Under the pieces are notes generated by a model, which was not told where the DNA came from, did no database searches, and was given only the letters and a program-made list of their open reading frames with translations. Of a stretch of DNA of 64,000 nt, positions 9,968-15,101 are shown piece after piece. The stretch is from positions 62,001-126,000 of the forward strand of contig NZ_JNIE01000002.1 in the NCBI RefSeq assembly GCF_000702425.1, written 5' to 3'. A program made the position numbers and the translations under genes. This DNA comes from Thermocrinis jamiesonii. GTDB lineage: Bacteria; Aquificota; Aquificia; Aquificales; Aquificaceae. The stretch's first letter is position 1; every line of letters begins with the position of its first letter.

Positions 9968-10372
9968 TCAATGATGATGATGGGAAGGTGGGAAAAGGAT
10001 CATAGCAAGCAAAGTAAAGAGAGATAGAGCTAAATATATAATCGGAAGCATAGATACTAAAGCAAAAACATATCCTCTTTTTGGTGTATTAAGAATGCTT
10101 ACCCTCTTCCAAAGTATGTGCAGGCTCCAAAAGCCGGCTATGAAAGGAAAAACTCTAAAGATCAAGAGCCATTGCTCACCCCTCTTAGCCAGTGGTTCAA
10201 CGGAAACCCCCAAACGAAAGGCTTGAGAAAAGCCATTAACTATGTTGTGGTAATACTCAATAAAGAAAAATTCAAGCACGTGAGACAGCCCCCCTACTAT
10301 CATCAAGGGTGCAAAGGCGTATCCAAGGGTTAGGAGGATCTCCTTAAATGTTCTTCCCGTTATCTTTGACAC
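9968..10372 (-). CDS. Histidine-tailed membrane segment, in-frame continuation of the 4Fe-4S protein
   Basis: A 134-codon open frame in the same reading frame as the 4Fe-4S membrane protein upstream, from which it is separated by one TAG (10388-10390) and five codons (VSFSL). It has three predicted helices, near 12-36, 70-88 and 100-128, and ends in SHHHH. The only nearby start is GTG 10372, which has no Shine-Dalgarno sequence. I think it was the C-terminal part of one protein of about 469 residues. Alternatives are two separate subunits or readthrough. The His tail and membrane position suggest metal contact. Confidence 0.6.
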   Translation of the reverse strand: MSKITGRTFKEILLTLGYAFAPLMIVGGLSHVLEFFFIEYYHNIVNGFSQAFRLGVSVEPLAKRGEQWLLIFRVFPFIAGFWSLHILWKRVSILNTPKRGYVFALVSMLPIIYLALSLFTLLAMILFPPSHHHH

Positions 10373-10387
10373 AAGGCTAAAGCTGAC

Positions 10388-11377
10388 CTAAACGATAAAA
10401 CCAACCAGCACAAGAGCCATAAGCATGGCGGTAAGCCCCGTCATATCCACCCATTTAGGGAGTCCTAAAGATTCCTGAATGCTTTTTCCAACTATCACCC
10501 AAGGCATATACTCGCTTAAGCCACTTCTTGAAAGCCCATGATGAAACCGCATTGTAAAGGTTATTACCGCCACCAAAAGCAAATAGACCATAACTTCTAT
10601 CATCTTTGGTTGTTTTATTTTCTCGTAAAGGGAATATCCCCACTTTTTGAACTCAAGCTTTACCGCATCGCAAGCGTGGGCACATTCCATACACATAGTG
10701 CAGTGAAACATGGACTTTCTCTCTTCAAACTTTGAAGGGTTTAGTTTGTAAGGACACGCCAAAGCACAGTCTGGTCTTTTACAGGTTTTGCATTCCTCTT
10801 GGTAGGTGGATAACCAAACTGGAGATGTCCTTGAAAATGCTGTATTAACGGAACCTATGGGACATATGTATTTGCAGTAAGACATGTCCCTAAACAAAAA
10901 GAAAAAGACAAAGGAAAGCACGGTAAAGAAAAGAAAGAACAATGCTGTGTTTAAAGGCTGTCTAAGAAATCCGGGGAATGTATAGAGGACAAACCAGTAA
11001 GCTAAAATGTTAAAGCCTATAAGTCCTATGTAAGGGTTTGCAAGCCACCTGGGAGGTCTAAGTTTCAGCCCAAGTTTAGTTATGTGCTTTCCCAAGAAAC
11101 CATGGGGGCATACCATACAAAAAACATTTCCCAAAGTAGGTAGAGAAACCACCATAAAGAAAGGCCAAAAGATAGACCAAAAAACCGCAGTGGTGAATAT
11201 GTTTTCCTTTGTAGGGTTCATTATGCCGTAAGCTATGGCGTAGAAGAGCAAGAATGTGGTAAAGAGTCTGTAGAACAAAAGCATATGCTTATTTTTGAAA
11301 AGAAAGCCAAGCACGGGTATGCCAAAAATGTCAGTCTTATCTCTTTTAGGTATAAAATGCACTCTTTTTACGTCCAT
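10388..11377 (-). CDS. Polytopic 4Fe-4S membrane protein, NosR/NapH/CcoG-like (ends at an in-frame TAG)
   Basis: A 329-residue electron-transfer protein with about six helices. Two membrane-loop cysteine motifs, CMVCPHG (about 97-103) and CKYICPIG (about 168-175), are of the kind seen in NosR and NapH. A bis-[4Fe-4S] ferredoxin insert follows: CKTCKRPDCALACP, then CTMCMECAHAC (about 197-240). It lies 12 bases after a TonB-dependent receptor gene, so it probably delivers electrons for metal or cofactor reduction linked to uptake; this is inference. It lacks the periplasmic FMN domain of full NosR. The frame stops at TAG 10388-10390 inside a predicted helix and then reopens. Confidence 0.75.
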   Translation of the reverse strand: MDVKRVHFIPKRDKTDIFGIPVLGFLFKNKHMLLFYRLFTTFLLFYAIAYGIMNPTKENIFTTAVFWSIFWPFFMVVSLPTLGNVFCMVCPHGFLGKHITKLGLKLRPPRWLANPYIGLIGFNILAYWFVLYTFPGFLRQPLNTALFFLFFTVLSFVFFFLFRDMSYCKYICPIGSVNTAFSRTSPVWLSTYQEECKTCKRPDCALACPYKLNPSKFEERKSMFHCTMCMECAHACDAVKLEFKKWGYSLYEKIKQPKMIEVMVYLLLVAVITFTMRFHHGLSRSGLSEYMPWVIVGKSIQESLGLPKWVDMTGLTAMLMALVLVGFIV

Positions 11378-11389
11378 GGCAGACCCCCT

Positions 11390-13483
11390 TTAAAAGTTGT
11401 ACGTAAGCCTTACTAAGAAATTTCTGGGTGGAGCGGGAGTGTATCTTTTCACTCCCTGCGTGTCTTTTGTTACTTCTACTGCATACTTTTTGTTAAAAAG
11501 GTTATCCACCATCAAAGAAACATCAAAGTTTTTTCTCTGATAGCCAAGGGTAACGCTGGTTATAAACTCGTAGCCTTCATACTTCTCGCTGTTGGCGTTA
11601 TCCATGTAATACTCTCCCCAGCTGTCTGTTTGGACCCTTACCCTAAAACCGGAAGGATGGGAATAGCTCAAAAACAAAGAGTATTGATGTATGGGAATGT
11701 AAGGAAGTCTGTTGCCATCCCTTGCTACGTTCGTTGTACCCACGCGCTCGAAAAACTTCTTAAACTTATAGTCGCTGTAGGTGTAAGAGCCACCAAAGGT
11801 CAAACCTTCTAAAATTTGATAGGAGGTGGTCAGTTCAAAGCCTTTCTTTTCCGTCTTTCCTGCGTTTATAAAACGGGTTTGACCGGTTTCGATCACACGT
11901 ACCACTTCGTCCTTTACGTCCATCTTATAAACGGCGGTTTCCAAGCTAAACCTTCTGTAATTTGCCTTTATTCCAGTCTCGTAGTTTATTACCTTGGTCA
12001 ATTTTAGGTTTGGGTTGGAGGCAAGCTCTCCGGAAGTGGGCGTGTTAGCACCCGTTCCCACCGTTCCGTAAAGGCTAACCTCTGGAAGTAGCCTGTAGGA
12101 TACCCCTACCCTTGGGCTTACTATGTTATAAGTCCTTTCTTTTGAGTAATTAAAACAGTTTTCAATAGCTGGATTGGGACAGCTCCTGTAATTTCCAGTG
12201 CTAAAGTCATAGTCTCCCCACTTGTAACCGCTTATGTCAAACTTCACTTGGTCAACTCTTACTCCAAGGTCTATTATCCATTTGTTCCTTTGAAAAGATT
12301 GTTGAACGAAAACTCCAGCCAGCAGAGTTTTTTGGGTTTGTCTTTCAAGTAAGTCTCCAGCCCTGTCTGAAAGTGTGGAAACTATGCGAGATCCAGCTAT
12401 CTGCACATCTCTATACTTATAGTATTTGGTCCTTTGCTGGTCGTATCTTACCGTAAAACCAGCTGTCAGCACGCCCAAGCTGTGCTTGTAGTTTGCCTGC
12501 ACGTCCGTTCCAAAGATCCATGTATCCGCATCGTTTATACGGCCCGTTACTGGGTGGTAATGTTGCCAGTGGTTGGTGTAAAAAAGAGGTATGAGTTCTA
12601 AATTCCCAAAGCTTTTTGTTAGCTTGGAGCTAAAGAAGAATATCTCCGAATACCTACCCATGTGCTTCCATGGGTCACCCGTGCGGGGCACTTTACCCGT
12701 TCTTAGAAACTCTGACCATTGGTCCAAGGGAGGGAAAGGCCTAACTACCAAAGAACCAGGAAGTTTTAAGTCCGCCTTTGTGTAGCTTAGGTAGTTTTCC
12801 CAGGTGTCTCCGTTTTCAAACATGTAGGAGGGTTGTAAGACTATCTGATTGGTTTGAAAAGTATTCCACTCCCTCCAGGAGTTATCCGTCTGCCTTCTGC
12901 TTGCACTAAAACCTATGTAAAAGTTCTTTCCAAGGGGCGTAGAGTAGTAAAAATGGTGGTTTTGGGTCTCGTAATCCCCAAAACCAAGCTTTATAAGCCC
13001 TCCCTTCCTCTCAAAGGGACTTTTTGTGATCACATTTATAACTCCACCAGAAGCATTTACTCCCCACAGAGTAGAGTTTGGACCTTTAACTACCTCCACC
13101 CTTTCTATGAGGGAAGTATCCACAAAATCAAGCCTTGTTAGGCTATCCGGGTCCGTTATAGGCACACCGTTTAAAAGCACCATTATTTCCCTTACTCCGT
13201 AAGGTGCCTTTAGGCCACCGCCCCTTATGATGAGTCTGACGTCGTAACCCTGATTTCTTGAACCCACATTCACGCCAGCCGTTCCTTGCAGTGCATCGAA
13301 AAGGTTCAGCATAGGTCTTTGTTCAATTTTCTCTTTGCCTATGACGGTTACACTTGCTGGTGTATCTTGCAATTTTCTCTCCGTCCTCGTGGCGGTTACG
13401 CTTATTTGTTCAAGCTCCAACTCCTTTGAAAGGGCTACTCCGCATAGCGCCAAAAGGGCTAAAACACTGCCCTTTTTACCCAT
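11390..13483 (-). CDS. TonB-dependent outer-membrane receptor
   Basis: A 697-residue receptor. It has a signal peptide at 1-20, a TonB-box-like segment QISVTATR (about 26-33), a plug domain (QDTPASVTVI to GGVINVIT, about 39-150) and a 22-strand barrel ending in the aromatic residue F, as outer-membrane proteins do. The ligand is unknown; co-transcription with a 4Fe-4S membrane protein suggests a metal or metal complex. A GGAGG lies 6 bases before the ATG, directly beside the 14-base palindrome at 13496-13509. The divergent exbB-exbD-tonB genes supply its energy coupling. Confidence 0.93.
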   Translation of the reverse strand: MGKKGSVLALLALCGVALSKELELEQISVTATRTERKLQDTPASVTVIGKEKIEQRPMLNLFDALQGTAGVNVGSRNQGYDVRLIIRGGGLKAPYGVREIMVLLNGVPITDPDSLTRLDFVDTSLIERVEVVKGPNSTLWGVNASGGVINVITKSPFERKGGLIKLGFGDYETQNHHFYYSTPLGKNFYIGFSASRRQTDNSWREWNTFQTNQIVLQPSYMFENGDTWENYLSYTKADLKLPGSLVVRPFPPLDQWSEFLRTGKVPRTGDPWKHMGRYSEIFFFSSKLTKSFGNLELIPLFYTNHWQHYHPVTGRINDADTWIFGTDVQANYKHSLGVLTAGFTVRYDQQRTKYYKYRDVQIAGSRIVSTLSDRAGDLLERQTQKTLLAGVFVQQSFQRNKWIIDLGVRVDQVKFDISGYKWGDYDFSTGNYRSCPNPAIENCFNYSKERTYNIVSPRVGVSYRLLPEVSLYGTVGTGANTPTSGELASNPNLKLTKVINYETGIKANYRRFSLETAVYKMDVKDEVVRVIETGQTRFINAGKTEKKGFELTTSYQILEGLTFGGSYTYSDYKFKKFFERVGTTNVARDGNRLPYIPIHQYSLFLSYSHPSGFRVRVQTDSWGEYYMDNANSEKYEGYEFITSVTLGYQRKNFDVSLMVDNLFNKKYAVEVTKDTQGVKRYTPAPPRNFLVRLTYNF

Positions 13484-13555: not shown

Positions 13556-13990
13556 ATGGTTTTCATTAGAGAACTTGTAGATTACGGAGTTATAGGTCTT
13601 TTGCTTGTTCTTAGCTTTTTTGCATTAGCCATTGCCATAGAAAGGTGGAGTTTTTACAGAAAGGTCAGGCTTGAAGAATACAAAACTAAGCAGGAGTTAG
13701 AAGTAGAACTCAGCAAAGGTCTTACCTTTATAGCTTCTACTGCGTCCAACGCTCCATACATTGGACTTTTGGGCACTGTGCTTGGCATTATGCTAACCTT
13801 TTACACCATAGGAGAAGAGGGCTTTGTGGATACAAAAAAGGTGATGGTTGGTTTGGCTTTGGCTTTGAAGGCTACCGCTGTAGGACTTTTGGTTGCTATT
13901 CCATCATCGGTGCTTTACAACATACTTCTCAAAAAAGTAAAGAATCTTCTTCTTTTGTGGGAAGCAAAGAATGGAGGACAAAGAGTTTAG
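13556..13990 (+). CDS. exbB: ExbB/TolQ/MotA family proton-channel protein
   Basis: Pentameric inner-membrane subunit that, with ExbD, uses the proton gradient to energise TonB. It has 144 residues. The first helix is near 8-28. The signature APYIGLLGTVLGIMLTFYTIG (about 65-85) and GLALALKATAVGLLVAIPSSVLYN (about 98-121) form helices two and three. It is short for the family, close to the minimal ExbB found in several non-proteobacterial species. No Shine-Dalgarno sequence is present, and the ATG lies 6 bases after TAAAAT, so a leaderless transcript is likely. It overlaps exbD by 20 bases. Confidence 0.9.
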   Translation: MVFIRELVDYGVIGLLLVLSFFALAIAIERWSFYRKVRLEEYKTKQELEVELSKGLTFIASTASNAPYIGLLGTVLGIMLTFYTIGEEGFVDTKKVMVGLALALKATAVGLLVAIPSSVLYNILLKKVKNLLLLWEAKNGGQRV

Positions 13991-14351
13991 CTCCATAAAC
14001 GTGATCCCCTTGGTGGATATAATGCTGGTGCTTTTAACCATAGTTTTAATTACTGCTACCTTTGTGGTGCAAGGAAGCATACCCGTCCAGCTACCCCAAG
14101 CAAAAACAAGCTCTCAGGAAAACTTAAAAGGGCTGTCCATAACCATAACCAAGGAAGGCTTGGTCTTCTTTGAAGGTAGAGCGGTCTCTTTGTTGGAGCT
14201 TGAAAAAGAACTTGAAAAGTATAAAAAAGACCATCAGGTGCAAATACTAAGCGACAGGAGAACAATTGTTCAAAGCTTGGTGAATGTTTTGGATATTTTG
14301 AAAAGGCTTGGCTTTAAAAAGGTATCCATAAAGACGGAGGTTAGTAAATGA
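13971..14351 (+). CDS. exbD: ExbD/TolR family biopolymer transport protein
   Basis: A 126-residue partner of ExbB. It has a short cytoplasmic N-terminus, one helix near 13-33 with the essential aspartate in INVIPLVDIMLVLLTI, and a periplasmic domain ending in VSIKTEVSK. It overlaps exbB by 20 bases. Its TGA (14349-14351) overlaps an ATG (14348-14350) in an ATGA arrangement that should start tonB, though a T7 run breaks that frame. Confidence 0.92.
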   Translation: MEDKEFSSINVIPLVDIMLVLLTIVLITATFVVQGSIPVQLPQAKTSSQENLKGLSITITKEGLVFFEGRAVSLLELEKELEKYKKDHQVQILSDRRTIVQSLVNVLDILKRLGFKKVSIKTEVSK

Positions 14352-14375: not shown

Positions 14376-15101
14376 TTGTCCTTTTTGATCCATTCACTTT
14401 TACTTTTAGGCTTGTTTTTCTTAACTCAAAGGCTATCACCCGTGGAGAAAAAGATAATTGAAATAGACTTTTCCGTTGAAAATTTAAGAAATGAAGTGTC
14501 TGATGTTAAAGCATCAAAGCAAAAGGAAAGGACACTTACAAACCTACCTTCAACAAACAAAGAGCAAACTCTACAAAAACCTACAGAGGAAATCCAACCA
14601 CCCCCTCCGCCTGTAAAGGATGAACCAAAAGAACCAGCAGTGGAACGGTCCATTCAAAGGGAAGAGCTTTCGGACTCATCTTTTTCATTTCCAGTAAGCG
14701 AAAGGCAGGAAAGGGAAGAGGAAAGCTCTCCAGCTCAAGCCATGAAGGATACAAAAAACCCATCAGGGCTTTTATCTCCACAGCAGAACACGAACGAAGA
14801 AAAAAACACATCCTTAGAGGAAAGCTTCCTTAGGGAAAAACTCTCTGTAATATCAAACATAGTCCAAAAAAGAATAAACTATCCAACTATAGCCAAAAGG
14901 ATGGGGTGGGAAGGAAGAGTTTTGATTAGCTTTGTGTTGGAACCAAGTGGAGAAATAAAAGAGCTAAGAGTTCTAAAAAGCAGTGGTTACGATATATTAG
15001 ACAGAGAAGCGGTTGATACTATAAAGAGAAGCTATAGAGAGTTTCCAAAACCCCCTATAAGTGTGTTGATAAAACTACCAATAGCCTTTAGGCTTGAATA
15101 A
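14376..15101 (+). CDS. tonB: TonB energy-transducing protein
   Basis: Links ExbBD to outer-membrane receptors. The frame has 241 codons from TTG 14376: a hydrophobic anchor near 1-17, a long Pro/Glu/Lys-rich periplasmic linker with PPPPP (about 74), and a C-terminal TonB domain (about 160-241) with YPTIAKRMGWEGRVLISF and GYDILDREAVDTIKR. The anchor lacks positive residues before it. An ATG at 14348 overlapping the exbD stop would give MKVFF and then TAA. Removing one T from the T7 run (14357-14363) gives MKVFFKAYSLSFLIHS, a proper signal anchor joined to this frame. TTG 14376 with a weak AAGG is the alternative start. Confidence 0.85.
   Translation: MSFLIHSLLLLGLFFLTQRLSPVEKKIIEIDFSVENLRNEVSDVKASKQKERTLTNLPSTNKEQTLQKPTEEIQPPPPPVKDEPKEPAVERSIQREELSDSSFSFPVSERQEREEESSPAQAMKDTKNPSGLLSPQQNTNEEKNTSLEESFLREKLSVISNIVQKRINYPTIAKRMGWEGRVLISFVLEPSGEIKELRVLKSSGYDILDREAVDTIKRSYREFPKPPISVLIKLPIAFRLE

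Follow-up and report, generated by a model that had tools for sequence, protein, structure and literature searches.

Among the closest described counterparts of the protein considered here are the membrane polyferredoxins of the NapH/MauN (TIGR02163) and CcoG types, which likewise combine membrane helices with 4Fe-4S cysteine clusters. CcoG has been reported to be a cupric reductase (PMC8267372), which serves as an analogy only. The window, a stretch of 64,000 nucleotides from Thermocrinis jamiesonii (contig 2, 62001-126000; assembly of 1,315,625 bases in 10 contigs), holds a polyferredoxin gene that differs from both types in the long extra C-terminal membrane part of its protein, which carries a histidine tail, and in its pairing with the gene of a TonB-dependent receptor. 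Two stretches of the protein match the Pfam profile PF12801 (Fer4_5) over the gathering cut-off (35.7 bits against 22). The NapH/MauN profile matches weakly across residues 148-244, with 32.8 bits against a cut-off of 213.05, which leaves the protein outside that family. A sequence search with the protein against solved structures returned none.

The gene occupies a 470-codon frame on the minus strand of the window (11377..9968), which on translation is broken only by a TAG at codon 330: from an ATG with a GGGGGT-type ribosome site, 329 residues are read up to the TAG, followed by 139 residues ending in HHHH and a TGA (Table 1). The Cys clusters and both Fer4_5 stretches lie in the N-terminal part, while the C-terminal part consists of the remainder of the interrupted helix, more hydrophobic helices and the HHHH tail. 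A sequence-only reading of this DNA had placed the TAG inside a hydrophobic run, with the frame open for 139 further codons to 9968; translation bears out both statements, the hydrophobic stretch spanning codons 318-336. A structure model of the joined protein, built from two sequences only and of low overall confidence (mean pLDDT 46.9), predicts one local helix, 312-340, that runs across the stop, so that the stop would cut a transmembrane helix; the model was used just for this locally better helix and not for a fold search.

Table 1. Features of the interrupted polyferredoxin locus and its neighbours (positions in the window)
Feature	Position	Strand	Remarks
Polyferredoxin, C-terminal part	9968..10387	-	same frame, 139 codons, TGA 9968-9970
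In-frame TAG, codon 330	10388..10390	-	TGG in closest relative, by codon alignment
Polyferredoxin, N-terminal part	10388..11377	-	329 codons, ATG, ends at TAG 10390-10388
TonB-dependent receptor gene	11390..13483	-	intact, 697 aa; directly upstream, same direction, 12 bases from polyferredoxin ATG
exbB	13556-13990	+	intact, divergent from receptor
exbD	13971-14351	+	intact, divergent from receptor
tonB	14376-15101	+	intact, divergent from receptor

Two open reading frames in a row in the same frame are not rare in themselves, as the window has 11 further such pairs, of which those inspected are ordinary neighbouring genes. The pair split by the TAG stands out because its homologues are single-frame. 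When the family and the phylum were searched, the gene turned up in 30 genomes: as an uninterrupted frame in 26, as a decayed relic in 3, and as the copy in the window. All 26 intact relatives, members of the same order, continue through the TAG point without an internal stop, which establishes the ancestry of the gene as one frame. The 13 distinct full-length homologues that were aligned (L002 and L007 being one locus) are single proteins of 454-471 residues, in line with the earlier proposal of one protein of about 469 residues broken by a nonsense change; the opposite case, in which a homologue would end at this point with a small second gene behind it, does not occur among the relatives. 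Two genuine adjacent genes are ruled out by the absence of this layout from all relatives, among which partial copies occur only as decayed relics, broken at other points than the copy in the window. The disabling change is therefore private to the window's lineage while its orthologues are intact, as is typical of a nonsense pseudogene.

Every aligned homologue that covers the TAG column has a sense codon there. The closest relative (L003 of genome G052; 78% identical) has TGG, whereas the others have Tyr, Phe, Leu or Ile codons, which implies that a bulky hydrophobic or aromatic residue of any sort is tolerated. As judged from this alignment, the ancestral codon is likely to have been TGG, and not TTG as the sequence-only reading had offered by way of example. 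With TGG in the closest relative, a single G-to-A transition accounts for the stop, and the change is a one-step one. An exact-pattern search of viral contigs for a sister allele with TRG at the site gave no match. The homologues of G052 and of the MAG QZM4_1.bins.16.Tibet (L002) represent the same protein with a histidine-containing tail and a TonB-dependent receptor as neighbour, but differ from the window in having an uninterrupted single frame of 469-470 codons.

The receptor gene directly precedes the polyferredoxin gene in 25 of the 26 intact loci, with too little flank to tell in the remaining one (L091). The best match of the receptor is to a siderophore-receptor subfamily, with a score below the cut-off (192.8 against 223.5 bits). 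The polyferredoxin is probably co-transcribed with the receptor and probably tied to metal uptake; by analogy, its partners and Cys clusters suggest that it could pass electrons to the metal or metal chelate which the receptor imports. The literature searched on FtrD/FtrABCD, and on polyferredoxins together with TonB and copper, yielded nothing on the receptor-polyferredoxin pair. The receptor-then-polyferredoxin pair, conserved in two families of the order, may represent a reductive metal-uptake module. The arrangement of the energising genes varies: in G052, as in the window, exbB-exbD-tonB and the receptor gene are divergent, whereas genus g7 (L002, L006, L009, L010) has the three genes downstream of the polyferredoxin gene and in the same direction. 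At L012 (G023) and L013 (G063), the polyferredoxin gene is followed directly, on the same strand, by another TonB-receptor-like gene, which shares 23-24% identity with the receptor gene of the window.

The age of the stop can be approached through the selection acting on either side of it. Consensus-breaking changes in the window lineage compared with its sister number 16 versus 14 in the N-terminal part and 2 versus 11 in the C-terminal part. In a codon model (our own small implementation, all other parameters fixed at their null-fit values) that lets the window branch be partly neutral, the log likelihood has dropped by 1.9 units once the neutral share of the branch reaches about 2.5% for the whole gene, or about 8% for the C-terminal part alone; any neutral phase thus covers at most these shares. 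Both halves remain under purifying selection, unrelaxed until very near the present. Apart from the TAG, the gene shows neither a stop nor a frameshift. Neutral divergence should bring about 50 nonsense hits per unit, so that this absence argues against a neutral divergence above about 0.05 per site, a bound that is similar to that of the codon model, but weaker. An old pseudogene is ruled out by this analysis. Since neither relaxed selection nor further lesions are seen, the data fit only a very young pseudogene, and the stop must either be very young or atypical of the species. In other words, the gene was functional up to the very recent past or is so today, as the unrelaxed C-terminal part is expected equally for a very young stop and for a protein that is still made.

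How far the TAG can be trusted as a feature of the species must be considered first of all in terms of the sequencing. For Thermocrinis jamiesonii GBS1T, Illumina HiSeq sequencing gave 2.7 Gbp of reads after filtering (PMC5073254), which over 1.32 Mb amounts to about 2000-fold coverage. This depth, and the absence of a homopolymer at the TAG, make a simple miscalled base unlikely, although the argument does not extend to a mutation borne by the culture. The analysis covered a single genome of the species, which counts against taking the stop as fixed. A consensus error or a mutation limited to the sequenced culture and untypical of the species would suit a stop that looks almost brand new, free of relaxation and of a second lesion, and the reference-strain stop of Campylobacter jejuni Cj0455c is a sense codon in another isolate (PMC11955535). 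Taken together, such an origin of the TAG is unlikely.

There is a similarly small chance that continued production of the protein explains why the TAG is tolerated, be it by readthrough or as two co-assembling pieces, in which case the stop would act as a dimmer on metal uptake and not as a loss. Genome-wide recoding of TAG is ruled out by the presence of RF1, by the lack of a tRNA with a CUA anticodon (suppressor or tRNA-Pyl) among the 43 tRNA genes of the genome, a count identical to the published one for this strain (PMC5073254), and by everyday use: TAG ends 13 of the 63 called genes in the window and is thus an ordinary stop here. Low-level synthesis across the TAG through leaky readthrough by a near-cognate tRNA has the conserved downstream sequence as its sole support at this locus, where the frame is unbroken and fully constrained. 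The residues commonly inserted at UAG would fit a column that accepts Trp, Tyr, Phe, Leu and Ile, and pseudogenes of Salmonella have been described as being expressed at full length at a low level (Feng et al. 2022, cited in PMC11955535). Against this stand the same RF1 and missing suppressor tRNA as well as the stop itself, which is conserved in no relative although conservation among orthologues is what marks readthrough or recoding. No stimulatory RNA structure was found at the stop either, the fold being weaker than that of shuffled sequences (z +2.0; pseudoknots lie outside the model). Leaky readthrough is therefore rather improbable. Separate translation of the two parts into a working split protein, with the second part reached by termination-reinitiation at GTG 10372, is more improbable still. 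This GTG (codon 336) lies only 15 bases past the TAG and the C-terminal part is unbroken, but, as the sequence-only reading had noted for the second part, it lacks a Shine-Dalgarno sequence. Nothing more than AGGT, 13 bases upstream, is present, so that none lies at a usable spacing. The same reading had taken the GTG for the only start; it is the first of several, as TTG 358, ATG 359 and GTG 367 are also in frame, but these would drop a conserved helix. Moreover, only one further homologue has GTG in the start column, where the rest mostly have a non-start codon, the split falls in a transmembrane helix, and no relative is split likewise.

A very recent nonsense allele of the polyferredoxin gene, that is an incipient pseudogene, is the probable explanation. 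Of the options raised by the sequence-only reading, this is the one that fits best, whereas for readthrough there is no suppressor tRNA, no conserved stop and no RNA signal. The ancestral gene encoded a single iron-sulfur protein of the inner membrane, about 469 residues long, and had the same orientation as the TonB-dependent receptor gene. A single G-to-A transition would then have converted the Trp codon, which the nearest relative retains, to TAG within a transmembrane helix. Translation most likely ends after residue 329, so that the product would keep its cluster-binding part but have a shortened last helix and lack the C-terminal membrane bundle and the His tail. From this we infer that such a product is most likely degraded or without function. 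For annotation, the two open reading frames should be treated as one interrupted gene and not as two proteins.

This recent nonsense allele adds to the repeated loss of the receptor-polyferredoxin pair in the Aquificaceae. Within the same genus (g1), an intact copy is present only in G052; in G053 a deletion and a frameshift have left a relic, and four of the seven genomes have no polyferredoxin match, including the complete or near-complete G051 and G056. Outside this genus, G040 has kept exbB-exbD-tonB beside a frameshifted polyferredoxin fragment. The locus in G057 (L064:6969-7763), likewise outside it, is a deletion relic of the same operon: remnants of the TonB-dependent receptor, matching query residues 524-598 and 663-697, pass directly into the polyferredoxin C-terminal part, which keeps an open frame with HHHHH at its end. 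These three independently decayed relics indicate that loss of the gene recurs, and the frequent loss of the pair in the family raises the prior for a plain loss of function. The pair is patchy even between close relatives (G000, genus g1).

The event thus looks like one of the ordinary loss-of-function kind. It resembles single-nonsense pseudogenes and strain-variable stops such as that of C. jejuni Cj0455c (PMC11955535), in which a stop likewise arose by one point mutation in a frame that is otherwise intact, with the difference that the gene in the window is known from the sequence of one strain alone.
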